Positions 14,924 to 44,384 of a stretch of 64,000 bases of DNA are shown here, piece by piece. The notes under the pieces are model-generated. The model was not told the DNA's origin. It searched no databases and saw nothing but the letters and a program-made list of their open reading frames with translations. The DNA is from Myxococcota bacterium (GTDB taxonomy: Bacteria; Myxococcota_A; Bradymonadia; UBA7976; UBA1532): assembly GCA_963169045.1 (NCBI GenBank), contig CAUJDF010000014.1:62001-126000 (forward strand), given 5' to 3'. Each line of letters opens with the position of its first letter. Position 1 is the first letter of the stretch. The position numbers and the translations under genes are program-made.

Positions 14924-17221
14924 GTGAGTCGGCGCACTCCCCCCGACACCGGGCGCACCGTCGCGTTCTTCCTCGTGGCTGCGATCCTCGGCCTCTTCAC
15001 GGCGGCGCTCGCCCGGCAGCTCCGCGCGCCGTGGTCCGGCGCGGTCGTGGCCGACGGCGGCGGCGCGTGGATCACGGTCACCGCCATCCACCCCGACAGC
15101 CCGGCCGACTGGGCGGGCCTGCATCCGGGCGACCGGGTGCCGATCGACCTCGTGCCCCCGGCGCGGGCGGTCCACCCGGGGGAAACGCTCGACATCGGTG
15201 ACGGGAAAGGACGCCGTGTCCGGCTGATCCCGGACGCGACGCCGCTGCGCGTGCTCGCGATCCACGGCGGCGCGCTGTTCGTCGCCGGGCTGGGCTGGCT
15301 CATGGCGGGGCTGGTGCACACGCTGCGGCGCCGCGACGGACCGCTGACGCGGCTGCTCTTCGTGGCGCATGCGGCCATCGGCCTGGGGCTGCTGGCCGCG
15401 GTGCCCGACGCCTCCGCGGACCTGCTGCAGCGAGGCGGGGCGGCGACGACGCTGCACCGCGCGGCCGTCCCGCTCGGGGCCGCGCTGCTGTTGCACGCGC
15501 TCGTGATGCTGCGGCGGGAGCTCGGGCGCCGCGGCGGCGCGTCGTGGCTGCCTCTGGCGGGCTACGTCGTGGGGAGCGCAGGCGCGGCGGCGACGGTCGT
15601 GACCGAGGGCCTCATGCCGGCAGTGCTCGGGGCCGCCGTCCTGCACCTGCTCGCAGTCGGCCTGCTGGCGTCCGCGAGGGCCCAGGAGCCGGCGTACACC
15701 GAGCGGCAGCAGCTCGGGTGGCTGCTCGTGGGCCTGGTGCTCCCCTCGCTGGCCTTCGTGGGCATCTCGGCGACGGCGCGCCTCGGCAGCGGCGAGGACG
15801 TCGTGCACCTCGCCGGCGACGTGCTGGCGCTCTCCTCGCTGGCGGTGCCGGCGACGATCGCCTTCGCGACGCTGAAGTACCGGCTGCTCGACGTGGAGGC
15901 GCTCGTCGGACGGGCGCTGCTCGACGGGCTGCTGGCGGCGCCGCTCGCGGGCGCGGTGCTGGCGGTCGCGGGCGCCGTGGCCGACGTGCCGGCGCCGCGC
16001 GGGCCGTTCCTGGTGCTCGCGGCGGGCGCGCTGGCGGCGATCGTGTGGTGGCGACTGCGGCGGCCGCTCCGTCGGCTGGCGGCGCGTTTCGCCTGGGGGC
16101 GGCACGTCTCGCCCGCGCGGCTGCGGCGGCGGGTGGAGGGCGCGCTGCTGGCGGCGCGCGATCCGGCGGCGGCTCTGACCGCCGTGGCGGACGCGTTGAC
16201 CAACGAGCTGGACGTTTTCGAGGCGCGCTGCCTCGTGGAGAGCGGCGACGGGCGCTGGCGGCCGTATGCGCCGGACGGGGCGCTCGCGCCGGTGGCGCTG
16301 CCGGCGGGCGGGCACCTGCTGGGCCTGGCGCGGGTGTTCTGCGCGCCGGTCTCGGCGGCGGACCTGGCGGCGGGGCCGCTCGACGACGAGGAGCGGGCCC
16401 TGCTCTCCTCGCCGGCGGGCGGGGCCACGTCGCTGCTGGCGCCGTGCCTGGTCGAGGACCGCCTCGTGGCGGTGCTCCAGCTCGGACCGGGCCGGCACGG
16501 CGTCGTCCCGGAGCGCACGGCCTATCGCGCGCTGGCGCACCTCGCAGCGGTGATCGGTCCGCAGCTCGAGCCGCACGTGCGGCTCGCGGCGATGGCGCGC
16601 CGGCTCGAAGTGACGCAGGACGTCGCTGCGGCGGAGCGCGCGGAGCTGCTCGAGCTGGTGGCGCGCGACACGGCGCGGCGGCTGCGGCCGGCGTTGTCGG
16701 CGCTGCGCGACCGGGTGCGCGACGGGACCGACGCCGAGGCGCTCGCCGCGCTCGAGCGCATGTTCTCGGGCATCGTCGCGGCGGAGACGGATCCGCGCCG
16801 GCGCCTGATCGACGCCGCGCCGGTGCTCGACGAGGCCTGCCTGATCGTGGAGCCGGCGCTACAGACGCACGGCGTGGCGCTGGTGCGGCAGACGGCACGG
16901 CCGGCGCCGGTGACGAGCGATCCCGACCGGCTGCGGCTGCTGGTGGCGGAGATGCTGCGCCAGTCGCTCGAGGCGGTGCTGCACGCGCCGGGGCCGCGCC
17001 AGATCACGCTGGTGGCGTCGTTCGAGGACGGGCTCGCGCTGACGCTGCTCGACAGCGGTCCGGAGCGGCCCACGCTCGACGAGCCGCTGCTCGCGGCGCC
17101 GTGGCCGTTCATCTCGGCGGCGCTGATGGAGCGCCTGGTGCGACTCGACGGCGGGCGCATCGCGCGCGGCCCCGGGCCCGCCGGTGGGCAGCAGATCCGC
17201 GTGTGGCTGCCGCCGCCGTGA
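14924..17221 (+). CDS. membrane sensor protein with PDZ-like, GAF-like and degenerate histidine-kinase domains
   Basis: About 765 residues. A first membrane helix (FFLVAAILGLFTAALA) is followed by a periplasmic PDZ-like segment (TAIHPDSPADWAGLHPGDRV), then six or more membrane helices to about residue 380, a GAF-like region (400-540), a helical linker and a C-terminal ATPase-like fold. The expected phospho-accepting His of a DHp helix is absent from ARDTARRLRPALSALRD. The N box is degenerate (MLRQSLEAVLHA) and the G1 box reads LLDSGPERP rather than DxGxG. A pseudokinase or scaffold is therefore more likely than an active kinase. The start could be GTG 14924 or TTG 14918. No response regulator is adjacent. 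It ends 1 nt from the stop of the convergent YihY gene. Confidence 0.75.
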   Translation: MSRRTPPDTGRTVAFFLVAAILGLFTAALARQLRAPWSGAVVADGGGAWITVTAIHPDSPADWAGLHPGDRVPIDLVPPARAVHPGETLDIGDGKGRRVRLIPDATPLRVLAIHGGALFVAGLGWLMAGLVHTLRRRDGPLTRLLFVAHAAIGLGLLAAVPDASADLLQRGGAATTLHRAAVPLGAALLLHALVMLRRELGRRGGASWLPLAGYVVGSAGAAATVVTEGLMPAVLGAAVLHLLAVGLLASARAQEPAYTERQQLGWLLVGLVLPSLAFVGISATARLGSGEDVVHLAGDVLALSSLAVPATIAFATLKYRLLDVEALVGRALLDGLLAAPLAGAVLAVAGAVADVPAPRGPFLVLAAGALAAIVWWRLRRPLRRLAARFAWGRHVSPARLRRRVEGALLAARDPAAALTAVADALTNELDVFEARCLVESGDGRWRPYAPDGALAPVALPAGGHLLGLARVFCAPVSAADLAAGPLDDEERALLSSPAGGATSLLAPCLVEDRLVAVLQLGPGRHGVVPERTAYRALAHLAAVIGPQLEPHVRLAAMARRLEVTQDVAAAERAELLELVARDTARRLRPALSALRDRVRDGTDAEALAALERMFSGIVAAETDPRRRLIDAAPVLDEACLIVEPALQTHGVALVRQTARPAPVTSDPDRLRLLVAEMLRQSLEAVLHAPGPRQITLVASFEDGLALTLLDSGPERPTLDEPLLAAPWPFISAALMERLVRLDGGRIARGPGPAGGQQIRVWLPPP

Positions 17222-17222
17222 A

Positions 17223-18545
17223 TCAGGCGGAGTCGGCGCGGGCGAGGAGCGTCTCCACATCGACGTCGAGATCGGCGTCGAGGTGGTCCTGCGCGAGGCG
17301 CAGGCGGTCCTCGACGGCGCGTGCGGCGCCCTTCGCCGGCAGCTGGCCGGGCTGGTAACCGCGGCGCGACGGCAGCGCGTACAACTCGCCCAGCGTGATG
17401 CGGGTGAGCGCGCGGCCGGGGATGACCTCGGGACCCGGCGCCGCGTCCTCGACCGGCACGAGCAGCTGCGCCTCGGTGAGCAGGCGCACCGCGGGCTGCA
17501 GCTCGGCAAGGGAGACCTCGAGCCGGCGCGCGACGTCCTCGAGCGAGACGCCGCCCCCCTGCGTCCGGAAGCGCTCGGCCACCTCGAGGAAGACCCGCGC
17601 CGTCATGTAACCGGTGGGCATGCGCCGCTCGCCGTGCAGCTCGCGGTGCCGGCGCAGGACGCGCTCGTCGTTGAGCAGCTTCCAGTTCTGCGCGATGAAC
17701 GTGAGCTCGACGCCGCCGAGCACGATGATCCAGGTCACGTAGATCCAGAAGAAGAACATGGGGACGAGCGCGAACGAGCCGTAGATGGCCGCGCGGACCG
17801 AGCCCCTGTAGATGCTGCCGATGTACTCGTTGAAGCCCCACTTGGTGACGTCGAAGACGATCGCCGCGACGACGCCGGCGACGAGGGCGGGCCTCCAGCG
17901 GACGCGGGCGTGCGGCATGAGCCGGTAGATCATCGTGAGCGCGGTGACCTCGAGGAGCCACGGGACGACGCGGGCGGCGAACGGGACGCGCTCGAGGCCC
18001 GACTGCAGGGCGGCGGTCGCGTAGAGCGCGACGCCGGCCAGCGCCGGCGACAGCGTGATCACCGCGTAGAACGTGACCACGCGGCGGTGGAAGGGCCGCG
18101 TGTGCGTCACGCGCCAGATGCGGTTGAACGCGGTCTCGATCGACAGGAAGAGCGAGACGGCAGTGACGATCAGGAAGGCGAAGCCGACGGCGCCGACGGC
18201 GCCGGACCGGGCGCGCTCGAGGAACTGGTAGAGCTGGTCGGCGACCTCGGTGACGCTGCCGGCGAGGAAGCTGCTCGCGAGCCAGTCGGCGACTTGGCCG
18301 CTCACCTCCTCACTCGAGGTGAACGCGCGCAGCACGGCGAAGACGACGGCCAGGAGCGGGACGAGCGACAGCAGCGTGGTGAACGTCAGCGCGGCGGCCG
18401 CGCCGAGACAATCGTCGTGGTACAGCTGGCGCGCGAGCTGGAAGACCGTCCGGCCGACGACGGCCGGCCAGCGACGCCAGCGACTGCCGTCGGCCTGCGC
18501 GCTCTCGTAGACGGCGTCCATCCACTGGACGAGGCGGGCCCACAT
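17223..18545 (-). CDS. YihY/BrkB family inner membrane protein with C-terminal winged-helix-like extension
   Basis: The 440-residue protein has the YihY family core: the signature DDCLGAAAALTFTTLLSLVPLLAVVFAVL near residue 45 (read in parts) and about six membrane helices to residue 300, including FFFWIYVTWIIVLGGVELTFI. The family was once called RNase BN in error; its role is unresolved and may involve transport or envelope integrity. After residue 310 there is a cytoplasmic extension resembling a winged helix (LEDVARRLEVSLAELQPAVRLLTEAQLLVP), a common add-on in this family. The ATG has no Shine-Dalgarno sequence; TATCGT lies 7 nt upstream. Confidence 0.85.
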   Translation of the reverse strand: MWARLVQWMDAVYESAQADGSRWRRWPAVVGRTVFQLARQLYHDDCLGAAAALTFTTLLSLVPLLAVVFAVLRAFTSSEEVSGQVADWLASSFLAGSVTEVADQLYQFLERARSGAVGAVGFAFLIVTAVSLFLSIETAFNRIWRVTHTRPFHRRVVTFYAVITLSPALAGVALYATAALQSGLERVPFAARVVPWLLEVTALTMIYRLMPHARVRWRPALVAGVVAAIVFDVTKWGFNEYIGSIYRGSVRAAIYGSFALVPMFFFWIYVTWIIVLGGVELTFIAQNWKLLNDERVLRRHRELHGERRMPTGYMTARVFLEVAERFRTQGGGVSLEDVARRLEVSLAELQPAVRLLTEAQLLVPVEDAAPGPEVIPGRALTRITLGELYALPSRRGYQPGQLPAKGAARAVEDRLRLAQDHLDADLDVDVETLLARADSA

Positions 18546-18552
18546 CGCGGCA

Positions 18553-18558
18553 ACGATA
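18553..18558 (-). promoter_or_regulatory. candidate leaderless -10 box (YihY gene)
   Basis: TATCGT on the minus strand, followed by 7 nt and the ATG at 18545. No Shine-Dalgarno sequence and no clear -35. It has the same geometry as the boxes at 10075, 31737, 36274 and 39378. Confidence 0.35.
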
Positions 18559-18584
18559 CCCCGCGTGTCTCGCGCGGGCGATCT

Positions 18585-19229
18585 TCAGACGAGCGCGAGG
18601 CGGCTCGCGGGCGATCGGACGCTGAAATCGACCGTGCCGCCGGTGGCGAGGAAGACACCGTACTCCGTGCCGCGGACGGCGCGGACCGCGAGCTCGACCG
18701 TGCCGCCGGCCGCCGGGACCTTGGCCCAGGCGGCCTGAGCGAGGTAGTCCGCGAAGCGGGTGTAGCGCTTCGTCGGCTTCGGCAGATACGGCACGGCCAC
18801 GGCGTACCAGGTCTCCGGCGCGTTCAGCGGCGGCTTGGCGGCTGCGGTGATCACCGCCGCCTCGGCGCCGGCCCAGCGGTGGGTGACGGCCGAGGGGCCC
18901 AACGAGAGGCCGCCTCGCTGTACGGCGCCGGCCGCCGTCTTGGCCTCGTTCGTCGCCACCCGCACGCTGCGCATCGTGGCCTTGGAGCGGCCGCCGAGGT
19001 GCGCCGCGTCGCCGATCGCGATGCCCCGGTAGAGGAACTGCGCGGCATCGACCACCTCGAGCATCATCACCGCCAGCGGCTTGCCCTCGAGCGAGAAGGC
19101 GTGGTCGGGCTGCTCCTCGTGCGGCGACATGCCCTTCAGCAGGATGGGGAACGCGGTGAAGGAACGCGCCGCGTCCCAGCGGAGCGGCTGCGGCATGTCG
19201 GGATCGGGGGGCACCCACGGCGTCGGCAT
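18585..19229 (-). CDS. cytoplasmic protein of unknown function
   Basis: 214 residues with no signal peptide or membrane helix. The ATG is preceded by GAGG at good spacing. The N-terminus is Pro-rich (MPTPWVPPDPDMPQPLRW), then come segments that look like beta strands (PLAVMMLEVVDAAQFLYRG, ETWYAVAVPYLP, GTVELAVRAVRGTEYGVFLA). I do not recognise the family. It follows the CHAT protease gene on the same strand after 58 nt and could be the last gene of that operon, but the gap is longer than the others in it. Confidence 0.7.
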   Translation of the reverse strand: MPTPWVPPDPDMPQPLRWDAARSFTAFPILLKGMSPHEEQPDHAFSLEGKPLAVMMLEVVDAAQFLYRGIAIGDAAHLGGRSKATMRSVRVATNEAKTAAGAVQRGGLSLGPSAVTHRWAGAEAAVITAAAKPPLNAPETWYAVAVPYLPKPTKRYTRFADYLAQAAWAKVPAAGGTVELAVRAVRGTEYGVFLATGGTVDFSVRSPASRLALV

Positions 19230-19287
19230 GATGGACCTCGTGAAGCCTCGATGCTGCAGCGGAAGCGCGGCGCGCGCCAGCCTTCAT

Positions 19288-21771
19288 TCAGCGGGGGTCG
19301 CCCTTCAGCGCGAACGACGCCCAGAAGTACGGGTGCGTGAAATCGGTGGGGCGCCCCTCACCGGCGGCGCGGCGCACCCCGCGCACCGCCGTCGCCAGCG
19401 CCCCCTCGTCGATCCCCGCCGCCGTCACTCGACCGCTCCGCAGCGCCCGCTGCGCCGCGGCGAACGCGCCCAGCCGCCTCTGCTCGGCGAGCGCGCCATA
19501 GAAAGCGTCCATGAATCGCAGGGTTGCCGCGTCGCTCACCGGCCAGCGGCTCGAGATCACCGTGCGCGCGCCCGCCTGCAGGAAGGCGCGGTCGAGCACG
19601 CCCGGGATCTCGTCGCCTCGGTTGGGCGCGCCGACGCCGGAGTCGCAGGCCGACAACGTGACGAGGCTCGACTTCAGCCGGAGGGCCGCGATCTCGTCGG
19701 CAAACAACCGCCCGTCGTGCGCGCTGTCGGGCAAGAGCTCGAGCCAGGCCGGCCGTCCGGAGGTGGGCTCGATGCCGTGCACGGCGAGGTGCACCACGTC
19801 GGCGGCACCCATCGCCGCGCGCACCGTCGTCTCGACGGCCTGGGCGCCGAGCAGCACCGTCCGCTCCGGAAAGAGCGCGGCGATGCGCGCCGCCTCGGCC
19901 CGGGCGCCGGGCAGGTTCTCGACCGGATCGCCGACGGCGAGCACCCGCGGCGTCGCCGTCGCCGGCGCCGCCTCGAGCAGGGCCGCCAGCGCCGGCAGGC
20001 TCGGCGCCGAGAAGACGTCGAAGCGGTCGAGCAGCCGCTCGCCCCCCCACGGCAGCACCTCGAAGGGCACGCGGTGCAGCGGCCCGTGGGGCACCACGCA
20101 GAGCCGCCGGGGCGCCCCGGGGCCGTTGAGCGCGGCGGCGAGCGGGTCGAGCAGGCGCGCCGCCAGCCAGGCCGCCGGGGCCTCGTAGTCGCGCCCACGC
20201 CCGAGGATGCCGCGCTCGAGCGCCGCCGCCTGGCCCGCAAGCGACGCGGCGTCGATCGCCACCCGCAAGAGCCGCCGCTCCGACCGCGTGACGTGGAACA
20301 CCAGCAGCTCGTCGGGGAGGGCGTAGTAGTCGAGCACCGCCGTGTCGTCGGGCAGCCGCGACGCCAGCGCCACCACCCCGGGCGGGGCGCCCAGGCCGCT
20401 CGCCACCTGGCGCAGGTTGGCGCCGCGTTGCAGGCGCCGCGGATCGGGCCCGGCGGCCGCGACGTCGCCGCGGTGGAGGCGCAGCAGGTCTTCGACGAGC
20501 GCGCGCGCCTTGATGCGGCCGACGAGATCGGCGGCCTCGTCGACGCGGTCGCGCCGCACGAGCGCCCGCAGGAGGTCCTGGTAGATGCCGAGCCGGCGCC
20601 GGTTGTAGAACGACGCCAGCATCTCGGGCCCGAACTGGCCTCGCAGGCACTCGAAGTGGTCGATCGCGCGCCGCCGGTGCGTCAGCTCGCCCTCGGCGTC
20701 GCCCGCGGCGGCGGCGCGCCGGGCCGCCACGTCCTCGGCGAAGGCCTTCCAGCGGTCGGGCAGGCGCCCGCGCGCCTCGAGCCGACCGAGCGCCTCGTCG
20801 ACATCGGGCCAGCGCTCGAGCGCGGCCAGCGCCATCGCCCGGATCAGGTGCGCGTCGTCGATGATCGCGTCGAAAGACCCGCCGAGCGCCAGCCCCTCGT
20901 CGGCCGCGGCGATCGCGCGCTCGTGCAGCCCCTCGGCGAGACAGGCGTTCGCGAGCACGAGCCGCGCTTGGGCCTGGAGCAAGCGGTTGCCCGATCTCGC
21001 CGCCACCTCGCTCGCCTGCGCGGCGCGGTCGCGCGCCTCGGCGAAGCGGCCCTCCTCGGCGGCCAGGTTGGCGAGGTTCAGCGTCGAGCGCGCCAGCGCC
21101 TCGGTGCGCTCGGCGCCCGCGTGGAGCGTGCCGGCGCGCGTGACCAGCCACCGCGCCGACTCGTGCTCGCCCACGTGGGCCATCAGCACCCCCAGACCGT
21201 CGAGCGCCTGCGCCTCGAGCGCCGTGTCCCCGGCGGCCTGCGCGCGGTCGTAGACGTCGGCGTAGGCGTCGTAGGCCGCCTGGAAATCGTCCATCTCCCA
21301 TGCGAGGGCGGCGCGGCTCGTCTGGACCTTGAGCAGGTCCGCCGTGGGGCCATGCTCGCGGTGGAAGGCGAGCGCCGCGTCGAACTGCGCCATCGCCGCC
21401 GGTCGCTCGCCCTCGGCGGCGTAGACCTGGCCCAGGTAGCGCCGCGCCACCGCCTCGAGCGGCGCGTCGCCCTCGCCGCGTGCCTCGTCGATGGCCCGCT
21501 GCAGGACCGCCTCCGCCGCGGCCAGCTCGCCGAGCTTGCGCAGCGTCAGGCCGAGCTGCGCCCGCGCCCTCGCGGGCGTCGCCGCGGCACCCGGTTGACG
21601 CAGCGCCTGCTCGTAGGCCGCCCGCGCCGCCGCGTAGTCGGCTCGCGCGTAGGCTGCCTCGCCCTCGGCGAACGCGTCCGGTGAGGAGCACCCCGCGAGG
21701 ATCAGGCCGAGGAGCAGCGCAAAGCGGGCGCGACCCACCCGATCGGCGGCAAGCGAGGCGAGCGGTTTCAC
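19288..21771 (-). CDS. TPR-CHAT caspase-like protease, predicted lipoprotein
   Basis: The 827-residue protein opens with a lipoprotein signal (LLLGLILAGC, Cys near residue 28), so the protease is probably exported and membrane-anchored. Residues 35-400 are TPR-like helical repeats (AEGEAAYARADYAAARAAYE and similar). The C-terminal 300 residues are a CHAT domain, a caspase relative: predicted catalytic His665 in HLAVHG and Cys709 in LSACDSG, followed by DRAFLQAGARTVISSRWPV. Both catalytic residues are intact. Its ATG overlaps the stop of the membrane-protein gene upstream by 4 nt. It sits in an operon with an ECF sigma factor and a TPR-dynamin-like GTPase. In type III-E CRISPR systems a TPR-CHAT protease cleaves a protein that holds a sigma factor; here no CRISPR is present, so only the logic may be shared. 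Confidence 0.9.
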   Translation of the reverse strand: MKPLASLAADRVGRARFALLLGLILAGCSSPDAFAEGEAAYARADYAAARAAYEQALRQPGAAATPARARAQLGLTLRKLGELAAAEAVLQRAIDEARGEGDAPLEAVARRYLGQVYAAEGERPAAMAQFDAALAFHREHGPTADLLKVQTSRAALAWEMDDFQAAYDAYADVYDRAQAAGDTALEAQALDGLGVLMAHVGEHESARWLVTRAGTLHAGAERTEALARSTLNLANLAAEEGRFAEARDRAAQASEVAARSGNRLLQAQARLVLANACLAEGLHERAIAAADEGLALGGSFDAIIDDAHLIRAMALAALERWPDVDEALGRLEARGRLPDRWKAFAEDVAARRAAAAGDAEGELTHRRRAIDHFECLRGQFGPEMLASFYNRRRLGIYQDLLRALVRRDRVDEAADLVGRIKARALVEDLLRLHRGDVAAAGPDPRRLQRGANLRQVASGLGAPPGVVALASRLPDDTAVLDYYALPDELLVFHVTRSERRLLRVAIDAASLAGQAAALERGILGRGRDYEAPAAWLAARLLDPLAAALNGPGAPRRLCVVPHGPLHRVPFEVLPWGGERLLDRFDVFSAPSLPALAALLEAAPATATPRVLAVGDPVENLPGARAEAARIAALFPERTVLLGAQAVETTVRAAMGAADVVHLAVHGIEPTSGRPAWLELLPDSAHDGRLFADEIAALRLKSSLVTLSACDSGVGAPNRGDEIPGVLDRAFLQAGARTVISSRWPVSDAATLRFMDAFYGALAEQRRLGAFAAAQRALRSGRVTAAGIDEGALATAVRGVRRAAGEGRPTDFTHPYFWASFALKGDPR

Positions 21772-22820
21772 GGCGCGTGCTGGATGTCGCTCGACTGGAC
21801 GAGCGTGAAGGCTTCAGCCGGCAGGCGCGCCTTCAGGGCATCGTGCAGGTGGGCGAGGCGCGCCTCGCGATCGAGGTCGCCGCGGTCGTTGATCCGCGCG
21901 AGCAGGCTCGGCAGGTCGGGCACCGGGCGGCGACTGACGACCGCGAGGAAGCGCTCGCGCCCCGGCTGCCCGTCGAGCTCGAAGCGCTCGCGCAGGAGCG
22001 CGCTCTCGAAGTTGAGGCGCGCGGGCTCGGTGAGCACGAAGCGATCTCGGCTGTCGAGCAGGAGCAGGCTGACGTACCCCCCCGCCGGCGCCTCGACGGT
22101 CACCGCCAGCACGTCCGACTCGCGGAAGGTGCCCGCGTCGGGGCGGCGCACCGTGTCGGCGCGTTCGCCGGCGACGTAGATGAACGCCGGGGGCGGTGTG
22201 CCGCCTGGGCGCAGCAACGGCACGAGCGCCAGCGCCGCGACGGCGGCTGCGGCGGCGACGGCGAGCGGCCACCGGCGGCGCGGCTTCGAGGCGGCGGTCG
22301 CCACCGGCGCGGCGGGCGCCGCACGCCGGGGCGCCGGCAGGCGCACCCCGCCCGCCACCGGCTCGCCCGCTCCGCCGACGGCGGCGTGCGCTCGAGCGTC
22401 GAGGACGACCCCTTCGGCGCCTTCGGCGACGAGGCGGCGGAACAGCGCCGCCGCCGCGTCGGTCGCCGGACCGAGCACCGCGTTGTGACCGCGCGCGCCC
22501 CGGCCGACGACGACCGCCGCCCGCACCGGCGCGGCGCCGCGGACCGCGTCGACGAGCGTCCGCACGGCATCGCCGGCGGCCTCGACGGCGAGCGCGAACC
22601 GCCCGTCGCCGAGCGCCTCGAGCTCGGGCGCCGCCGACGCGAGCGCCGCGGGGAGCGGCCCGGCCAGCTGCACGACCGCCACCGCGAGCCAGCGCTCGTC
22701 GACCTCGGCGAGCGAAGCCGGCGGCTCGGCTTCGCCGCCACGCTCGAGCGCGCGCAGCACCGCGTCGGCCGCTGCCAGCGCCGCCTCGTCGAGCTCGTCA
22801 TAGTCGTCCCAGTCAGCCAT
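21768..22820 (-). CDS. one-pass membrane protein with cyclase-homology-like N half and DUF4384-like C half; putative anti-sigma or sensor
   Basis: 350 residues. An acidic N-terminus (DWDDYDELDEAALAAADAV) leads into residues 40-155, which follow the strand-helix order of a class III nucleotide cyclase homology domain (RWLAVAVVQLAG, FALAVEAAGDAVRTLVDAV, VRAAVVVGRGARGHNAVLG) without recognisable catalytic metal residues. One membrane helix (WPLAVAAAAAVAALALVPLL, near 190) separates this from a C-terminal region resembling DUF4384 (GYVSLLLLDSRDRFVLTEP). There is no zinc anti-sigma motif. The place between an ECF sigma gene and a protease gene suggests a membrane sensor for the sigma factor; this is inference. 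The stop overlaps the CHAT start. Confidence 0.72.
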   Translation of the reverse strand: MADWDDYDELDEAALAAADAVLRALERGGEAEPPASLAEVDERWLAVAVVQLAGPLPAALASAAPELEALGDGRFALAVEAAGDAVRTLVDAVRGAAPVRAAVVVGRGARGHNAVLGPATDAAAALFRRLVAEGAEGVVLDARAHAAVGGAGEPVAGGVRLPAPRRAAPAAPVATAASKPRRRWPLAVAAAAAVAALALVPLLRPGGTPPPAFIYVAGERADTVRRPDAGTFRESDVLAVTVEAPAGGYVSLLLLDSRDRFVLTEPARLNFESALLRERFELDGQPGRERFLAVVSRRPVPDLPSLLARINDRGDLDREARLAHLHDALKARLPAEAFTLVQSSDIQHAP

Positions 22821-22853
22821 GCAGTTTTCCAGTGCAGTCGCAGACGGCGGTTC

Positions 22854-23468
22854 TTACCGGGCGTCGTAGCCCTCGTCGCGCAGCACCTCGAGCGCCGTCT
22901 TCGCGATGCGGTTCTTCCACTGGTACACGTTGTTGGCGTTCGTCTCCTCCAGGCGCGCGATCGTCGTCACGTCGAGCTCCTGGACGAACAGGTACTCGTA
23001 GAACTGGCGTCCCTTGGGGGAGAGCTTGTCGAGAATGGCCGTGCGCAGGCGCGCCACCTCCTCGACCGTGCCCAGCCCCTCGAGCGGCGGCGGCTCCGCG
23101 TCGTCGAGATCCAGCTCGGCGTCGGCGCCGTCGAGCGCCAGGCGGAAGCGTCCGCGCTGTTCGAGCGTGCGCCGGAAGTGCCGCAGCGCCACCCGCTCGG
23201 CGATGCGGCACAGGTAGGTCTTGAGCCCCGCGCGCCCCGCCCAGCGGCGCAGCACCTGCGCCTCGGCCTCGAACACGGCGAGGAAGACGAGCTGCAGCGC
23301 GTCGTCGACGTCGGCGAGTTGCACGCGGCCCGCGCGCACGACCGACAGGAACGAGATCGCCTGATGCACCGCGCGATGGAAGCGCGCGACGAACCGCCGC
23401 CGCGCCTCGCGGTCGCCCGCAATGCAGGCGTCGACGAGCGCCCGCTCGTCCTCGTCCCCCCCGCGCAT
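22854..23468 (-). CDS. ECF-type RNA polymerase sigma factor (sigma-70 family)
   Basis: About 204 residues. Region 2 is recognisable as a helical block with VDDALQLVFLAVFEAEAQVL and GLKTYLCRIAERVALRHFRR. Region 4 has LSPKGRQFYEYLFVQELDVTTIARLEETNANNVYQWKNRI (read in parts), with a helix-turn-helix pattern and the VYQWKNR recognition helix. The lineage is divergent but sigma-70-like overall. I start it at ATG 23468; a GTG at 23492 would add eight residues. It lies 27 nt after the Cys-rich lipoprotein gene and 33 nt before the membrane-protein gene, all on the minus strand, so it is inside the operon that starts at 27901. Confidence 0.85.
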   Translation of the reverse strand: MRGGDEDERALVDACIAGDREARRRFVARFHRAVHQAISFLSVVRAGRVQLADVDDALQLVFLAVFEAEAQVLRRWAGRAGLKTYLCRIAERVALRHFRRTLEQRGRFRLALDGADAELDLDDAEPPPLEGLGTVEEVARLRTAILDKLSPKGRQFYEYLFVQELDVTTIARLEETNANNVYQWKNRIAKTALEVLRDEGYDAR

Positions 23469-23495
23469 GTCCCCGCCGCCCCCCTCTCGCACCGC

Positions 23496-24959
23496 TCAGC
23501 GGGCGCAGAGCCCCACGTCCGCGTACACGTCGTCGTTCGGATCCCGCGTGCCCTGCGTCCCGAAGACGTAGCGCCCGACGGCGCACCGCGCGCCCGCGGC
23601 GCAGTCGGCGTCCGCGCCGCAGACGCCGAAGCAGGCCCCCTCGCGGCAGAAGCCGCTGGCGCAGGCCCCGTCGTCCGCGCAGGGCGCACCCGCGGCGGCC
23701 CCCTCCCCCCCACGGACGCACGCCGCGACGAGCCGCCGGCCGTCGACCGACGTCCGCAGCGCGCAGACCTCGCCGCCCTCGCAGTCGGCGGTCCGAGCGC
23801 AGGGCGCAGCGCTGCCGCCGTCCGGGAGGCACGCGGGCAGACCGATGCGCAGATCGTCGGCGCGCCCCACCGTGCTGCCGTCGTCGACGATGAACACGCC
23901 GGCCTCGTAGCAGCGCGCGTCGCCGGCGCAGTCGCCGTCGGCGGCGCACGGGCCGAAGCAGATGCCCTCGTCCAGGCACTCGCCGGTCACGCACTCCTCG
24001 TCGCGGGCGCACGCCGCCCCGCCGGCGCCGGCGCCGATGCGACCGGGAACGCAGGCGAGCAAGAAGCCGCGCGGGCCGTCGGACGCGGCGATCGGCGCGC
24101 AGCGCTCCGTCGGCCCGCAGTCGCCGAGCCGCTCGCACCGCCGCGGCGCCTGCCGGCAGGTGCGGATGCGCCACGCCGTCGAGCCGTTGAACAGGCGCGT
24201 CCACAGGCATGTGTTGCCGTCGAGACAGTCGCCGTCGGCGAGACACGGATCGAGACACTGTCCGGTCACGCAGATGCCCGACGCGCAATCCGCGCCCTCG
24301 TCGCACGCCGCGGCGCGCGCCCCCGGGCCCTCGGGCTCGCGGCAGCGGGCGATCATGTCGTCGGTGCCGGGCACGGCGTCGACGCGGCAGATCGAGCCGT
24401 CGGGACAGTCCGCCGACCGGCCGCACGAGAACGTCGCGTCGTCGGGGACGCAGGCGCGGAGCCGCGAGTGGCACCGCTGGCCGTCGCGGCAGTCCTCGGC
24501 GCGACATCCGGGGAGGCAGCGCCCGGCGTCGGCGTCGAAGGCGCAGTAGTGCGCGGGCGGGCAGTCGTCGATCGCGCCGCAGGGGATGGCGTCGAAGTCG
24601 TCGCAGTCGCTGTCGACGCCGTCGTCGGGCGTCTCGGGCGCGCCGGGCCAGCGCCGGCCGTCGGTGTCGTCGCAATCTTCCGGCGCGGCGACGCCGTCGC
24701 GATCGCGATCGGAGCCGGGGGGCGGCGCGGCGTCGGGCGCCACTGCATCGGAGGCGGCAGCATCGGACGCGCCGGCATCGGCGGGCGCGCCATCGGACCG
24801 CCACGCGGCGTCGCCGACCGGCGCCGCGTCACCGGCCGCCGCGTCGGGCGCGTTGCCGCGCGGCCCGCAGGCGGCGCCCTCGCACTCGCCCCCCTCGGCG
24901 ATGTCCCCCGCGGCGCACCCGGCGAACAGGAGGCCGATCGTCGCTGCAATGCGGCGCAT
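23496..24959 (-). CDS. Cys-rich lipoprotein with MopE-like and Dickkopf/EB-like Cys repeats
   Basis: 487 residues. The lipobox is LLFAGC (Cys15). After an Ala/Asp-rich linker comes a calcium-type Asp-rich segment (DRDRDGVAAPEDCDDTD, then DGVDSDCDDF) as in MopE-like surface proteins of myxobacteria. The rest is at least six Cys-rich modules of the form CxxxxDC..G..C....C (for example CDEGADCASGICVTGQC and CADDGACASGFCREGAC), probably disulfide-bonded outside the cell. It is a likely outer-surface lipoprotein; ligand binding is plausible but unproven. The ATG shares one base with the stop of the GTPase gene (TGATG), so the start at 24959 is favoured over longer options. Confidence 0.85.
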   Translation of the reverse strand: MRRIAATIGLLFAGCAAGDIAEGGECEGAACGPRGNAPDAAAGDAAPVGDAAWRSDGAPADAGASDAAASDAVAPDAAPPPGSDRDRDGVAAPEDCDDTDGRRWPGAPETPDDGVDSDCDDFDAIPCGAIDDCPPAHYCAFDADAGRCLPGCRAEDCRDGQRCHSRLRACVPDDATFSCGRSADCPDGSICRVDAVPGTDDMIARCREPEGPGARAAACDEGADCASGICVTGQCLDPCLADGDCLDGNTCLWTRLFNGSTAWRIRTCRQAPRRCERLGDCGPTERCAPIAASDGPRGFLLACVPGRIGAGAGGAACARDEECVTGECLDEGICFGPCAADGDCAGDARCYEAGVFIVDDGSTVGRADDLRIGLPACLPDGGSAAPCARTADCEGGEVCALRTSVDGRRLVAACVRGGEGAAAGAPCADDGACASGFCREGACFGVCGADADCAAGARCAVGRYVFGTQGTRDPNDDVYADVGLCAR

Positions 24960-27901
24960 CAGGGCCCGGAAGACCGCGCGAGGTGCTCGAGCGGCTCGAC
25001 CAGCCGCCGCGCCAGATCGGCGCGCGCTTCGCGCAGCTCGCCCGCCGCCTCCTCGGCGAACGCGGCGAGGCCGTCGAACAGCGCGTCCGCCAGCCCCTCG
25101 AGCTTCAGCGGCCGGGCGCGGTCGAGCGCCAGGTCGCGACCAGACGGGGCCCGATCGATCCATCCTTCGAGATAGGCACGGTGACGCCCGAAGATCTCCT
25201 CGAAGCGCAGCTGGCGGTAGCCGTCGATGATGCCGCGCAGGGCCGCGACGCGGGCGGCGATCGTGTCGTCGGCGCCCCCCGCGAAGATCGTCTCGAGCTC
25301 GTCGAAGAGCGCGTCGAGCCGCGCCGTGAGCCGGGCCTCGATCGAGGCGCGCAGGGCGTCCACCGCCTCGCCGACCCCCCGCCGGCCCCCGGCCTGCTGG
25401 ATGTCACGACCCAGCGCGTCGACCACCTCGGGCCCGACCTCGGCCGCGAACGCGCGCTGCTGGTCCTCGATGCGACGCGCGATGCGCGTCACCGCCGCCT
25501 CGCGATGGCCGAGCGCCTCGAGGCGATCGTCGAGCCGCGCCAGCACCTTCGCGAGGATGCGGCGCAGCCGCAGCCGCACCGCCGCCTGCCGGATGACGGC
25601 CGCCCGGTCGAAGAGCGACTGGCGCAGGAGCCGGTGCAGCTTGCCGAAGCCGCTCGCCCGCACCGCCTCGACGTCGCGCCGCGCCAGGCCGTCGAGGCCG
25701 AGCCGCGCGCTGACCGCCGCCACGCCGTGCACGCGTCGCCCGAGCGCGCGCTCGGCCCGCGACGCCGCCTTCGCGACGCGTGCCTCGTCGTGGGCGTCGA
25801 CGCGGGTGACGACCGCCACCGCCTCGATGGCGCCGCGCCCGAGCCAGTGCGCCGCTTCGCGCCAGTGCTTCGCCGGCTGATCCGCCCCGACCAGCCACAG
25901 CGCCGCGTCGGCCTCGGCCAGCAGCGGCTCGCTGTCGCCCGGCGCGAGCGGATCGGGCAGATCGAGGATGCTCGCCCGCGTCAGTTCTTCAATCGGGACG
26001 AGGACTTCCACGAGTCGGACCGCCGCGGCGCTCAGCGCCTCCTCGTTGGCCTCGAGGAAGGCCCGCAGGTCGCGGATGCGCACCGTCGAGACGCGCCCGT
26101 CGCGGTAGAGCACGCGTCCGCCGGGCTCGCTGCCGTAGCGCAGCATCAGCGCGACGCGCGTGCCCTCGGGGATGACCTCGGAGCCGATCAGCGCGTTGAC
26201 GAACGTCGTCTTGCCGGCGCCGGGCGGACCCAGGATGGCGAGGAGCAGCGGCTGGTCGTGTGTCTCGACGAGGCGCTCCACGGCCAGTCGTAGATCGGCG
26301 AGCGCCGGCTCGTCGGCGATGAGCCGCCGCACCGCGTGCAGTCGTGCCAGCGCCTCGGTGGCCGCCACCGACGGCAGCGGCGCCGGCGGTGCCAGCATCG
26401 AGGGCGGCTCCGGCACGCCGTCGGTCCCCTCCACCGCCAGCGGCGGCACGGAGGCGGGCGGCGGCGGATCGCTCGCCGGCGCGGGCAGCGGCGGCGTGGC
26501 CAGCGCCGAGATCGAGGCGAGCGGACCCGTCGGACGGCGGGCGTCGGCCCGGGGGCCCAGGATCTGGCTCACGACCGCCTCGACGGGGGACGGCACCGCG
26601 CTCGTCGGCCGCCGCGAAGCCCCAGACGAACGCGAGGCGAGCGACTCGTCGGGGACCGCGTCGTCGTCGTCATCCGCCTCGACCGCGCCGAGCCTTCGCC
26701 GCACCTCGCGCCCCGCCTCGCCGCCGTCGGCCGCGAGGCCGCGCAGGTCGCGCGCCAGCGCGTCATCGCCCAGGTGGCGCAGGTGCTCTTCGGCCGCCTC
26801 GGGCTGGCCGAGCGCCGTGAGCGCCGCGCCGGCGGCCAGCCGCAGGTCGACGGGGGTGTCGTCGCCGACGAGGCGCGGCGAGACCAGCGCCAGCGCCTCG
26901 GCGGCCTCACCGGCCGCGACGAGCGCAAGCGCCCGCACCGCCAGCGCCTCGGCGTCGTCGGGCAGCAGGCGCAGCACGTCGCGCGCGTGCGCCGACGCCC
27001 GCTCCATGCGCGCCCCCGCACGCGCCGCCTGCATCGCGACGACGTACCCCGCGGGCTCGTCCGGCTCGAGCGACGCCGCGTGGATCGCCGCCGTCTCCGC
27101 CGCCTCGTGACGCCCGAGCGCCAACAGCAGCCGCGCGTGGAACAAGTGCAGGTCGACCCGGTCCGGCGCCGTCGCCAGGGCCCGCAGCACGTAACCGGGC
27201 GCCTCGGCGAGGTGGCCCGTCTGGGCCAGCGCCTCGGCCATGCCCGCCAGGGCGTCGGGGGACTCCGCGTCGCGGCGCAGCGCCTCGGCGAACAGCGCCC
27301 GCGCCTCCTCGCCGCGCCCGAGGTGCAGGAGCGAGCGCGCGAGCGCCACCGCCAGCTCGCCGTCGCGCGCCTCGCCGAGCGCCTCGACCGCCTCGGGGTG
27401 CCGGTCCTGACGCTGCAACGTCTCGACGAGCGCCCCGAGCAGCTCGCGATCGCCGGGAGACAGCTCGAGCCCGCGCCGCGCGAGGGCCTCGGCGCGGCTC
27501 AGGCGTCCGAGCGCGTTGTAGCAGCGCGCGAGGGCCGCGATGGCGCCCGGGTCGTCCGGGCGGGCCTGCAGGGCGCGCCGCAGAAGCTCGGCCGCCTCGT
27601 CGTAGGTCTCCTGTGTCTCGCGGACGGCGGCGAGCGTCCGCAGCAGCCAGAACGCGTCGGGCTCGGCGGCCAGCGCCCGCTCGAGCGCCGCCGCCGCGCG
27701 CCAGGCGTCGGCGCGGCGCAGGTGCGCCAGCCCGACGAGGTGGAGCGCGTCCGGCGTGGCCGCAGACCCGTCGAACAGCGCAAGCACCTCGTCGACGCGT
27801 CCGTCGCGCAGCGCGCGCAGCGCCCCGTGCAGGGCCTCGTCCGCCTCGGCGGGGAGCGTCACCTCGGTGAGGACGCGTTCGATCGGGTCCGAAGGGCGCA
27901 T
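24959..27901 (-). CDS. TPR repeat protein fused to dynamin-like GTPase domain
   Basis: 980 residues. The first 400 are TPR-type helical repeats (AAALERALAAEPDAFWLLRTL, AAELLRRALQARPDDPGAI, read in parts). A Pro/Ser-rich linker follows, then a GTPase domain from about 545: P-loop AILGPPGAGKTTFVNALIG near 555, switch Thr region (EGTRVALMLRYG), G3 motif ILDLPDPL where dynamins have DLPG, and G4 TRVD near 699. The last 230 residues are long helices (RRILAKVLARLDDRLEAL, ARRIEDQQRAFAAEV) like a bacterial dynamin stalk. Dynamin-like proteins remodel or seal membranes. No membrane-insertion paddle is obvious. GGAGAGGG precedes the ATG and a near-consensus promoter lies 35-70 nt upstream. First gene of the sigma/CHAT operon. 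Confidence 0.85.
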   Translation of the reverse strand: MRPSDPIERVLTEVTLPAEADEALHGALRALRDGRVDEVLALFDGSAATPDALHLVGLAHLRRADAWRAAAALERALAAEPDAFWLLRTLAAVRETQETYDEAAELLRRALQARPDDPGAIAALARCYNALGRLSRAEALARRGLELSPGDRELLGALVETLQRQDRHPEAVEALGEARDGELAVALARSLLHLGRGEEARALFAEALRRDAESPDALAGMAEALAQTGHLAEAPGYVLRALATAPDRVDLHLFHARLLLALGRHEAAETAAIHAASLEPDEPAGYVVAMQAARAGARMERASAHARDVLRLLPDDAEALAVRALALVAAGEAAEALALVSPRLVGDDTPVDLRLAAGAALTALGQPEAAEEHLRHLGDDALARDLRGLAADGGEAGREVRRRLGAVEADDDDDAVPDESLASRSSGASRRPTSAVPSPVEAVVSQILGPRADARRPTGPLASISALATPPLPAPASDPPPPASVPPLAVEGTDGVPEPPSMLAPPAPLPSVAATEALARLHAVRRLIADEPALADLRLAVERLVETHDQPLLLAILGPPGAGKTTFVNALIGSEVIPEGTRVALMLRYGSEPGGRVLYRDGRVSTVRIRDLRAFLEANEEALSAAAVRLVEVLVPIEELTRASILDLPDPLAPGDSEPLLAEADAALWLVGADQPAKHWREAAHWLGRGAIEAVAVVTRVDAHDEARVAKAASRAERALGRRVHGVAAVSARLGLDGLARRDVEAVRASGFGKLHRLLRQSLFDRAAVIRQAAVRLRLRRILAKVLARLDDRLEALGHREAAVTRIARRIEDQQRAFAAEVGPEVVDALGRDIQQAGGRRGVGEAVDALRASIEARLTARLDALFDELETIFAGGADDTIAARVAALRGIIDGYRQLRFEEIFGRHRAYLEGWIDRAPSGRDLALDRARPLKLEGLADALFDGLAAFAEEAAGELREARADLARRLVEPLEHLARSSGP

Positions 27902-27942
27902 CCCTCTCCACTCGGTGCCGGCGGCAGGCAGGAACGCGGGGG

Positions 27943-27972
27943 ATCATATTCGCGCCGTTCGCGGCCGGTCAA
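27943..27972 (-). promoter_or_regulatory. near-consensus promoter of the TPR-GTPase / sigma / CHAT operon
   Basis: On the minus strand TTGACC (27967-27972) and TATGAT (27943-27948) are separated by 18 nt. Each hexamer matches five of six housekeeping-sigma bases, which is striking in such GC-rich DNA. Transcription would start near 27936 and give a leader of about 35 nt. I see no other promoter of this quality until after the CHAT gene. Confidence 0.65.
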
Positions 27973-28062
27973 TTCGGGGGTCGGGGCCGGGCGGGAGGGT
28001 TGTGTCCCGATCCCCGCCGTGGTTTCATCGCCTTTCGCCAGACGAGAGGGAGGGCTCGCACC

Positions 28063-28554
28063 ATGCCGTTTTCGGTCGGTGACATGGCGGTCTATCAGGG
28101 GCAGGGCATCGGTCAGATCACCGACATCGGGCACATGAAAGTGGGGGGAAGCTCGATCGAGGTGTACACCCTGCGGCTGGTGGAGACCGGCACGACCATC
28201 CGCATTCCGACGCACAAGGCCGGCTCCGTCGGCCTCCGGCAGATCATCGACGAACAGCAGGTCCGCAACGTCTACGAGATCTTGCGGGCCGCCGCCGAGA
28301 AGCTCGAGGACAAGACCTGGAACCGCCGCTATCGCCACTACCGCGAGAAGCTGCGCACCGGTTCGGTCTGCGAGGTGGCCTGCGTGCTGCGCGACCTGTA
28401 CCGCCTCAAGGGCGACAAGGAGCTCAGCTACGGCGAGCGCCAGATGCTCGACGAGGCGCGCAACCTGCTCGTGAAGGAGCTGTCCTTCGCGACGCGGCGC
28501 GACGAGACCGAGATCGTCCAGGAGCTCGAAGACCTGTTCGCGCGCGAGTGCTGA
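28063..28554 (+). CDS. cdnL: CarD/CdnL family RNA polymerase-binding transcription factor
   Basis: CdnL/CarD proteins bind the RNA polymerase beta subunit and stabilise open complexes, especially at rRNA promoters. The 163-residue protein has the N-terminal Tudor-like domain (FSVGDMAVYQGQGIGQITDI, then YTLRLVETGTTIRIPT) and the helical C-terminal DNA-binding domain (SYGERQMLDEARNLLVKEL). The length equals that of Myxococcus CdnL rather than the larger CarD, which has an AT-hook tail. The ATG at 28063 has GAGGGAGG upstream. It is divergent from the GTPase operon. Confidence 0.93.
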   Translation: MPFSVGDMAVYQGQGIGQITDIGHMKVGGSSIEVYTLRLVETGTTIRIPTHKAGSVGLRQIIDEQQVRNVYEILRAAAEKLEDKTWNRRYRHYREKLRTGSVCEVACVLRDLYRLKGDKELSYGERQMLDEARNLLVKELSFATRRDETEIVQELEDLFAREC

Positions 28555-28585
28555 ACCTTCGCGGCGGCGCGTTGTCGAAGGGTCG

Positions 28586-29284
28586 ATGCCTGCGAGCACC
28601 CTGCCCGTGAACGACGAGTCTCCCGACGAGGCGCCGGCCCCCCGTCCTTCGGGGGCGCGCGCGCTGCTGCTGGCGCTCGTGCTGGCCGGCTCGGTGCTCA
28701 TGATCGCGCACCACGCGCCCGGCGCCGCCTACTTCCTGAAGGCCGGAGAGGCCGCCGACTGCAACCGCGAGGTCGCCGCCCTGCCGCGCGAGGCCTGGTG
28801 CCGGCTCGGCGGCCACGTCGCCGATCTCGAGGTCCTCGTCGCCGGCGATCCCGGCGATCCCGAGGCCGACGTGCGCACGCGGAGCGCCGGCCGGAAGCTC
28901 TACGTCCGCCTCTGGGGCCAGCGGGTCTTCGCCGTGCTCGCCGCCGACCGCGAGGACGTCCTCGCCTGGCGCGAGGGCCACGCGGGCGCGCTGCCCGGCT
29001 TCGAGGTCGAGGGCACGGGGAGGCTCTTCGACCCCGACGGCGACCCGGTGTTCGCAGGCGTCGCGGCCACGCTGCGACAGCGCTACGGCATCTCCGCCGA
29101 CGAGAGCATCCGCCTCTTCGACACCACCGACCAGCCGATCGACCGCTGGCCCGCAGCGCTCGCCGTCGCGCTCATGACGCTCAACGCGGCGCTCGCGCTG
29201 ACCGGCCTGATCCGCGTGGCGTTGCGCCTCCGCCGCCCTCCGCCGCCGCCCGAGGACGTGAACTCTTCCACCGTTTCGGTTTAG
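28586..29284 (+). CDS. membrane protein of unknown function, two predicted helices
   Basis: 232 residues. One helix near the N-terminus (ALLLALVLAGSVLMIAHH, residues 26-43) and one near the C-terminus (WPAALAVALMTLNAALALTGLI) bracket about 140 residues that should face the periplasm, with two Cys (DCNREV, AWCRLGG) that may pair. The domain contains strand-like LYVRLWGQRVFAVLA. I do not recognise the family. GAAGGG precedes the ATG. It follows cdnL by 31 nt on the same strand and may be cotranscribed. Confidence 0.72.
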   Translation: MPASTLPVNDESPDEAPAPRPSGARALLLALVLAGSVLMIAHHAPGAAYFLKAGEAADCNREVAALPREAWCRLGGHVADLEVLVAGDPGDPEADVRTRSAGRKLYVRLWGQRVFAVLAADREDVLAWREGHAGALPGFEVEGTGRLFDPDGDPVFAGVAATLRQRYGISADESIRLFDTTDQPIDRWPAALAVALMTLNAALALTGLIRVALRLRRPPPPPEDVNSSTVSV

Positions 29285-43077: not shown

Positions 43078-43611
43078 ATGACCGCGGAAGGCGCGATGGA
43101 CGGCGATCCGAGCCTCGAGACCCTCTACGTGCAGTACGGGCACCACGTGTTCCGGCGCTGCCGCTATCTGCTCGGCAGCGAGGACGCCGCCTGGGACGCG
43201 ACGCAGGAGGTGTTCCTCAAGGCCGAGCGGGCGCGCGGCGGTTTCGAGGCGCGCGCCTCGTGGCTGACGTGGCTGCAGCGCATCGCGACGCACCACTGCC
43301 TGAACCTGCTGCGGGCGGGCAAGGTGCGGCGCGGGCGCGGCACCGTCGGCCCCGACGCGCTCGACGCCGAGGGCCGCTTCGCCGAAGGGTCGGAGCGGGC
43401 GGTGCTCGTGCGCGACCTGTTGGCCTGCTTCGACGCGCAGACGCAGGCGGCGGCCGTCCACTACTTCGTCGACGAGATGAGCCAGGAGGAGGTCGCCGCG
43501 GCGGTCGGGCTCTCGGTGCCCACGCTGCGCAAGCGCCTGCGCGGGTTCGTGGAGCGGGCGCGCCGGGAGGGGGCGCGTGTGCTCGCCGGCGCGGCGGAGC
43601 GGAGGTCCTGA
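43078..43611 (+). CDS. ECF-type RNA polymerase sigma factor
   Basis: 177 residues. Region 2 has LYVQYGHHVFRRCRYLLGSEDAAWDATQEVFLKAERA (read in parts) and ASWLTWLQRIATHHCLNLLR; region 4 has AAAVHYFVDEMSQEEVAAAVGLSVPTLRKRLRGF (read in parts), a clear helix-turn-helix. This is the usual ECF layout. The downstream anti-sigma gene overlaps its stop by one base. ATG 43078 was chosen; ATG 43096 is also possible. It is divergent from the tRNA-Gln promoter, which lies about 85 nt away. Confidence 0.92.
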   Translation: MTAEGAMDGDPSLETLYVQYGHHVFRRCRYLLGSEDAAWDATQEVFLKAERARGGFEARASWLTWLQRIATHHCLNLLRAGKVRRGRGTVGPDALDAEGRFAEGSERAVLVRDLLACFDAQTQAAAVHYFVDEMSQEEVAAAVGLSVPTLRKRLRGFVERARREGARVLAGAAERRS

Positions 43612-44384
43612 TGGACGACGAGATCGGAGCGCTCGAGGCGCGGTTGGACGAGGCGTCGCCGGCGCACCCCGGGCGGCACCTGCTGGCGCGCTTCGAGGCC
43701 GGCGAGCTGGACGACCCGAGCGCGCTCGCGGCGCACCTCGACGTCTGCGCGCGCTGCGCGGGGCTCGTGGCGGAGATGGGGCGCGATCGGCAGGCGTTCC
43801 TGGCGCTGCGGCCGCCGGCGACGCTGCAGCGACCGACGCCGGCGCCGTCGCTGGCGGCGCGCCTGCGCCTCTGGCTGGTGGGCCCGACGCTCGTCGCCGC
43901 GGGGCTGGCCTGGTGGCTCGTGCCGCGGGAGGCCCCGGCGCCGGCGGGCGTCCGCCTCAAGGGGGCGGTGGACCTCGGCTTCCACGTGCGCTCGGACGGC
44001 GAGGTGCGGCGCGGCGAGCCCGGCGACGTCGTCCACCCCGGCGACCAGGTGCAGCTGCGCTACTCGACGCCGCAGCACCGCTACCTCGTCGTGGTGTCGC
44101 TGGACGCGCGGGGGGCGGTCACGCCGTTCTACGACGACGCCGGCCGCTCGCTGGCCATCGAGCCCGGCACCGCGCGCCTGCTCGACGGCAGCGTGGAGCT
44201 CGACGACGCGCTCGGCCCGGAGCGGGTGGTCGCCTGCTTCAGCGCCGCGCCTCTCGAGACGGCGAGGGTGGTCGAGGCGGGCCGGCGGGCGCTGACGGCG
44301 GCCGGAGGGGATCCGCGCGCGGTCGGGCCGCTCGATCTTCCTTGCGATCAGGCCGGCTTCGTGCTCGAGAAGCGGGGCCGGTGA
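43611..44384 (+). CDS. zinc-type anti-sigma factor with DUF4384-like periplasmic half
   Basis: 257 residues. The cytoplasmic N-terminus has the zinc anti-sigma motif Hx3Cx2C (AAHLDVCARCAGL). One membrane helix (LWLVGPTLVAAGLAWWLV) follows near residue 95. The periplasmic part resembles DUF4384: VHPGDQVQLRYSTPQHRYLVVVSLDARGAVTPFY (read in parts) and ERVVACFSAAPL. Such proteins hold their sigma factor until an envelope signal arrives. GGAGG precedes the ATG, and TGATG links it to the sigma gene; its stop overlaps the caspase gene by 4 nt. The sensor half resembles the C half of the protein at 21768-22820. Confidence 0.88.
   Translation: MDDEIGALEARLDEASPAHPGRHLLARFEAGELDDPSALAAHLDVCARCAGLVAEMGRDRQAFLALRPPATLQRPTPAPSLAARLRLWLVGPTLVAAGLAWWLVPREAPAPAGVRLKGAVDLGFHVRSDGEVRRGEPGDVVHPGDQVQLRYSTPQHRYLVVVSLDARGAVTPFYDDAGRSLAIEPGTARLLDGSVELDDALGPERVVACFSAAPLETARVVEAGRRALTAAGGDPRAVGPLDLPCDQAGFVLEKRGR

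Follow-up and report, generated by a model that had tools for sequence, protein, structure and literature searches.

Results

Gene organization of the run

The window analyzed here is a stretch of 64,000 nucleotides (nt) from the draft genome (9.0 Mb) of a Myxococcota bacterium (genome G000), corresponding to positions 62001-126000 of its contig C14. The minus strand of the window carries a run of genes that includes a dynamin-like GTPase, an extracytoplasmic function (ECF) sigma factor and a CHAT protease candidate. From the gene sequences and their arrangement in relatives, we suggest with middling confidence that the run may consist of two units placed head to tail, i.e., the dynamin GTPase with a lipoprotein, and a protease-gated ECF sigma cassette. 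Five genes occupy 27901-19288, each overlapping the next or separated from it by no more than 33 nt, and all are where a preliminary description of this DNA had placed them. The first encodes a 980-amino-acid (aa) protein composed of tetratricopeptide repeats (TPRs) and a bacterial dynamin-like GTPase (24959-27901), in which a signal peptide was not seen. Its gene overlaps, at the sequence TGATG, that of a 488-aa Cys-rich lipoprotein (23496-24962) with the lipobox FAGC and MopE-type and Dickkopf_N-like motifs (Pfam PF11617 and PF04706). The gene for the ECF-type sigma factor is next (22854-23468), separated by 27 nt if it starts from the ATG at 23468 or by 3 nt if it starts from an in-frame GTG at 23492; homologues favor the ATG. 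After a gap of 33 nt comes the gene for a membrane protein, here called Memb (21768-22820), a putative anti-sigma factor. This gene overlaps by 4 nt (GTGA) the gene for an 827-aa TPR-CHAT lipoprotein that is predicted to be exported (19288-21771). We refer to sigma-Memb-CHAT as the cassette.

The preliminary description let the run end at CHAT. Its five genes stand, but the end point does not, since the same-strand run has seven genes. A gene for an unknown 214-aa protein without a Pfam match (18585-19229) follows CHAT after 58 nt, and after a further 39 nt the final gene encodes a BrkB/YihY-family membrane protein (17223-18545; PF03631, 174 bits). The run ends there; the neighboring gene, at 17221, is convergent and only 1 nt away. 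No terminator-like site was detected in a scan of 17000-28600, and no internal promoter was found. On the other side of the GTPase gene, the divergent neighbor is CarD (28063-28554, plus strand; PF21095, 100 bits), a marker of the ancestral GTPase locus.

The GTPase and its promoter

Pfam places TPRs over the N-terminal part of the GTPase and leaves Dynamin_N below threshold (25.4 bits against a cut-off of 27). The AlphaFold2 model of the GTPase part has a predicted local distance difference test score (pLDDT) of 75.4 and a predicted template modelling score (pTM) of 0.64. When this model was used in Foldseek, BDLP was the first match (E 3.4e-11), and IniA (7.5e-10), a Campylobacter dynamin pair and mitofusins were also recovered; all 31 PDB matches at E<=0.001 belong to the dynamin superfamily. 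Judged by its modelled fold, the protein is a TPR-fused bacterial dynamin-like protein with a BDLP/IniA-like fold, which bears out the label it had been given. The G1 P-loop GPxGAGKT and the G2 Thr are invariant in seven GTPase orthologues. G3 reads DxP, with the Gly missing in the orthologues, and G4 (TRxD) varies to SRVE and is absent in G004. Because of the missing G3 Gly and the variable G4, nucleotide hydrolysis should not be assumed.

A sigma-70-type promoter, TTGACC-18-TATGAT (27943-27972, minus strand), precedes the GTPase gene. It is the sole site of this type in 17000-28600 (11.6 kb), where shuffling expects 0.1. For comparison we used twelve genomes from other genera of the same family and a set of 57 genomes from the class. 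The GTPase loci of relatives were found by searching with the GTPase domain alone, and a scan of genome contigs gave only two true orthologues (G005 and G012), both already in the set. In 2.16 Mb of strand sequence, the pattern TTGACC-18-TAnnnT occurs at eight distinct places, five of which lie directly upstream of GTPase orthologues (G000, G005, G002, G009 and G011), with the other three matches elsewhere. Since this is far above chance, we take the site to be a real and conserved GTPase promoter, in agreement with the preliminary description, which had placed a promoter ahead of the run. It is kept whether or not the cassette follows. G007 has a variant, TTGACC-17-CCTAAT. At this locus (L095) the -10 element CCTAAT ends about 6 nt ahead of the start codon, which suggests that the G007 GTPase transcript is leaderless or nearly so.

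Gene neighborhoods in relatives

In the family, CarD is found near the GTPase in G002, G008, G009, G011 and G012, and a DinG-type helicase gene lies between the two in G002, G009 and G011. Gene order thus assigns the GTPase to an old CarD/DinG locus, in many cases with no cassette behind it. In G000 the GTPase is followed by the lipoprotein, sigma, Memb, CHAT, the unknown gene and BrkB. In G005, from a second genus, sigma begins 25 nt after the GTPase and is followed by Memb and by a CHAT gene interrupted by the contig end; another G005 contig opens with the terminal part of a CHAT gene (55% identity) and continues with BrkB. In G006, from a third genus, the GTPase gene overlaps sigma by 4 nt, and Memb, CHAT and BrkB come next, with no 214-aa gene before BrkB. 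G011 has CHAT and then BrkB, the GTPase being cut off by a contig boundary, so that BrkB directly follows CHAT in G005, G006 and G011. In G002 and G009, which belong to one genus, a lipoprotein gene (46-49% identity) is next to the GTPase, and the cassette is on a separate contig behind a FAD-linked oxidase gene, where the overlaps are again present. In G008 and G012, again from one genus, a convergent gene follows the GTPase; there is no cassette nearby and no full-length Memb in either genome. Nor is there a sigma or CHAT gene near any of six GTPase loci outside the family.

Orthologues of the sigma factor are present in G005, G006, G009 and G002. A profile search recovered full-length Memb in five of the 57 class genomes, directly behind the GTPase in three of four genera. 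CHAT lies directly behind Memb in G006, in G009 and in a paralogous locus on contig C37 of the same genome, and G005 is consistent with this order. The GTPase and the cassette thus adjoin in three genera (G000, G005 and G006), are apart in a fourth, and in a fifth the cassette is missing. The preliminary description had made its operon depend on such co-occurrence, which does exist, even though one obligatory GTPase-sigma-CHAT unit is not upheld by the loci where the cassette is unlinked (G002/G009) or absent (G008/G012 and the six outside loci). Every junction of the run recurs in at least one other genus, yet by these comparisons the run is composite, made of GTPase-lipoprotein and sigma-Memb-CHAT-BrkB. 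Protein identity between these genera is 33-57%, and at this distance the retained overlaps suggest selection.

Proteins of the cassette

The sigma factor passes TIGR02937 (48.8 bits, cut-off 42.9), with the Pfam matches to regions r2 and r4 below their own cut-offs. A shared ECF-type promoter was not found upstream of the sigma genes, just two of the five having GAAC-N15-18-CGT there. Memb has a cytoplasmic N-domain of about 180 aa, a single transmembrane (TM) helix at about residues 185-203 and a C-terminal, periplasmic DUF4384-like domain. The latter is below threshold in Pfam (PF14326, 18.1 bits against a cut-off of 27). It aligns in hhalign (E 9e-9) with the DUF4384 of CHAT fusions in class relatives, a domain that scores 51.7 bits there, and the profile search also recovers these fusions. 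The CHAT lipoprotein has TPRs and a type II signal, LLLGLILAGC, with the lipobox LAGC and Ser at +2. Its His665-Cys709 pair is intact, in the motifs HLAVHG and SACDSG (PF12770, 185 bits). The CHAT label given earlier therefore holds, and the sequence makes the protein a candidate exported protease. Because Memb has a DUF4384 ectodomain and CHAT has a lipobox, both face the periplasm.

Within the Memb N-domain, a stretch of about 165 aa (22290-22820) is conserved in five genomes and is possibly a new anti-sigma domain. The impression from motifs that it might be a degenerate nucleotide cyclase was dropped, since a Pfam search returned nothing for it up to E 10. A RecA-like match was also dropped because its source was tandem RecA fusions; with one RecA copy alone, E rose to 0.6. 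No relation was detectable between this domain and the 251-aa TM protein of the sigma-CHAT module at L128.

Recurrence of caspase-clan protease modules

Of the 15 CHAT genes in the genome, eight have an ECF sigma gene within 4 kb (binomial P 2e-7, with uniform placement assumed). At 19 loci of relatives chosen by sigma similarity, CHAT is found within three genes in 13. There, the gene after sigma usually encodes a single-TM protein of 210-290 aa, and many of the CHAT proteins begin with lipoprotein signals. An ECF sigma factor, a single-TM protein of 210-290 aa and TPR-CHAT occur together family-wide, in many copies per genome (L127-L138 and L140-L158).

CHAT-TM-DUF4384 fusions are encoded two genes from a sigma gene in the class relatives G053 (L140), G054 (L144) and G056 (L157), and in G054 and G056 a gene with the ZAS motif (HxxxCxxC) lies between sigma and the fusion. 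G006, G009 and the paralogue on C37 retain the Memb-CHAT gene overlap seen in the window. Together, such overlaps and the fusions point to a direct partnership between the two proteins. The C37 locus (L098:6437-9375) has no sigma gene; it encodes a short TM-DUF4384 protein whose gene overlaps that of a predicted exported CHAT protein. Short homologues of Memb of this kind are also found in G002, G005, G009 and G011.

A parallel module is present elsewhere in the window, on the plus strand. It encodes an ECF sigma factor (43078-43611), a ZAS anti-sigma factor with HxxxCxxC, a TM helix and DUF4384 (43611-44384), a caspase C14 protein predicted to be exported (44381-45970) and a lipoprotein-like protein (45967-46875). 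All four genes overlap or touch.

Discussion

The predicted exported CHAT protein would face the ectodomain of Memb at the inner membrane. This arrangement is closer to DegS/RseA than to Csx29/Csx30, and we therefore propose that CHAT cleaves Memb in a regulated manner. We suggest that the cytoplasmic N-domain of Memb would keep sigma at the inner membrane, and that the TPRs of the exported CHAT lipoprotein, which is probably anchored at the outer membrane, would sense a change in the envelope. CHAT would then cut the periplasmic DUF4384 domain of Memb, and the stump would be degraded by intramembrane and cytoplasmic proteases in the way known for RseA, releasing sigma. In favor of this gating mechanism are the CHAT-TM-DUF4384 fusions, the retained Memb-CHAT overlaps, the parallel C14 module of the window, the frequency of CHAT genes close to ECF sigma genes and the precedent of Csx29 and Csx30. 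We give it an even chance of being correct. Spacing and the lack of a terminator-like site suggest that read-through from the GTPase promoter would provide basal expression of the cassette. The GTPase may be co-made as a membrane-maintenance protein, and the cassette would not need it adjacent. The sequences show the gene order, the topology signals, the catalytic residues, the conservation and the fusions, and the model shows the GTPase fold; we infer sigma binding by Memb, cleavage by CHAT and coupling to the GTPase. The envelope-damage response of the preliminary description is plausible as a role for the cassette, by topology and analogy, but not with the GTPase as an obligatory member.

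Several observations weigh against this proposal. The ZAS motif is absent from the Memb N-domain and its four orthologues, and the domain lacks a Pfam match of any kind at the lenient cut-off given above. The Memb model is poor (pLDDT 53), has no PDB fold match at E<0.001 and was not used. In the CHAT-TM-DUF4384 fusions, CHAT is predicted to be cytoplasmic, on the opposite side from DUF4384, so that DUF4384 cleavage cannot be the mechanism there unless the topology differs; in the fusions this domain is, from its placement, more likely a sensor than a substrate. As for the GTPase, CarD, Hyp232, Hyp620 and BrkB are also retained around it, which makes the locus conservative in general. Its adjacency to the cassette may be a single inherited event and is broken in G002/G009. 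The GTPase tree does not separate the genera within the family and so does not tell an ancestral linkage from a later one. In all, we consider a functional tie between the GTPase and the cassette doubtful.

Other explanations have to be weighed against the protease-gated cassette. Adjacency could be neutral, with an independent single-locus GTPase, a cassette that has its own promoter, and a neighborhood that is the relic of one insertion. This reading, which we regard as quite possible, agrees with the retention of CarD-DinG-GTPase with or without the cassette, with the retained Hyp232, Hyp620 and BrkB and with the generally high synteny. However, the coding overlaps and short gaps, kept at protein identities of 35-57%, suggest more than chance, and the promoter that it calls for within the run was not found there. 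Conversely, the run could be a single integrated envelope-damage operon in which sigma drives all genes, the dynamin mends membranes and CHAT cuts substrates. It would explain the contiguous and tightly spaced run without a terminator-like site and the GTPase-sigma junctions kept in G005 and G006, and a stress-induced dynamin has a precedent in IniA of the mycobacterial ini operon (PMC5760070, PMC6715688). Against it are the GTPases without a cassette in G008/G012, the unlinked cassettes of G002/G009, a GTPase promoter that is housekeeping-like and retained where the cassette is absent, and the lack of an ECF-type autoregulatory motif common to the GTPase and sigma upstream regions. We therefore consider it unlikely.

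A further possibility is that CHAT is the output of the cassette, where sigma, controlled by Memb through another signal, would drive an exported CHAT that acts on envelope proteins or in cell death. The cassette ends with CHAT, a role as death effectors is frequently discussed for caspase-like proteases, and DUF4384 might act as the sensor, given that class relatives have it joined to CHAT in one protein. The precedent of Csx29 and Csx30, in which the sigma inhibitor is the target (PMC10028731), argues otherwise, as do the Memb-CHAT gene overlap and the CHAT-DUF4384 fusions with the direct partnership they point to, and we judge this reading to be improbable. A role in anti-phage defence or abortive infection is far less probable still. 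Even though dynamins and CHAT proteases are known from defence systems, PADLOC gave only weak and partial matches, the best at 23 bits in a TPR stretch and the best dynamin, LeoA, at 18.5 bits. There is no defence or mobile gene among the annotated neighbors, the surroundings are envelope and housekeeping genes, the GTPase is stable in its locus beside CarD in most of the family, and CHAT is predicted to be exported, unlike the cytoplasmic CHATs of defence.

To our knowledge, type III-E CRISPR is the only characterised system in which these three kinds of protein, a TPR-CHAT protease, an inhibitor of sigma and an ECF sigma factor, come together. In that system, the TPR-CHAT protease Csx29 cuts Csx30 and lifts the inhibition of an ECF-like sigma factor (PMC10028731). 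Like Csx29/Csx30/CASP-sigma (PMC10028731), the window encodes a TPR-CHAT protease, a candidate sigma inhibitor and an ECF sigma factor side by side. The CRISPR-associated parts are all cytoplasmic and triggered by RNA recognition through Cas7-11, whereas in the window CHAT is a predicted exported lipoprotein and the candidate for the inhibitor has a TM helix and DUF4384. Annotation of the surroundings of the run gave no Cas7-11, Csx30 or CRISPR genes, although no search for Cas7-11 was made over the whole genome. With RpoE/RseA/DegS/RseP (PMC8103513), the window has in common an ECF sigma factor, a putative inhibitor with a single TM helix and a periplasmic domain, and a periplasmic protease. 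It differs in that the protease is a caspase-fold lipoprotein from the same cassette and that the N-domain of the inhibitor is not a recognised anti-sigma domain.

Operons of metacaspases (C14) and sigma-70 factors have been described in Myxococcus xanthus and relatives, with no mention of CHAT (PMC3501461). These operons, from the same phylum, likewise combine a caspase-clan protease and a sigma factor, and 43078-45970 in the window is of this sort. In the run, by contrast, CHAT replaces C14, the protease is a predicted exported lipoprotein and a dynamin gene lies upstream. The gene contexts of ECF54 hold CHAT, subtilase or carboxypeptidase genes, for which proteolytic control has been proposed and an anti-sigma factor assumed to be absent (PMC8999054). 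There, as in the window, CHAT genes adjoin ECF sigma genes, but the window has a TM protein between sigma and CHAT. Since C14-sigma operons and ECF54-CHAT neighborhoods have been noted before, an association of this kind is already known. The form in the window differs in its compartment, as a predicted exported lipoprotein would face an inner-membrane ectodomain.

Bacterial caspase-fold proteins have mostly been treated as death effectors or in the context of CRISPR. The recurrence of exported ones beside ECF sigma factors and membrane proteins with DUF4384 suggests a more ordinary job, the gating of transcriptional responses of the envelope, and gives DUF4384 a candidate role in signalling, as the domain that partners caspase-clan proteases. 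In its most extended form, which we offer as speculation and consider rather unlikely as a whole, an outer-membrane caspase-fold lipoprotein would make the site-1 cut in an inner-membrane anti-sigma factor, and the TPR-dynamin would be a membrane-remodelling arm in part of one family. The CHAT and C14 modules would then be parallel forms of one design, made of an ECF sigma factor, a TM anti-sigma factor with DUF4384 and an exported caspase-clan protease.

The window also offers an example, of which there are few, of a dynamin gene that envelope stress may control. With BDLP and IniA (IniA: PMC6715688), its product shares, by prediction, the GTPase and helical-bundle fold. It is set apart from both by the N-terminal TPR array, by the unusual G3, i.e., DxP without Gly, and by the sigma/CHAT cassette nearby.

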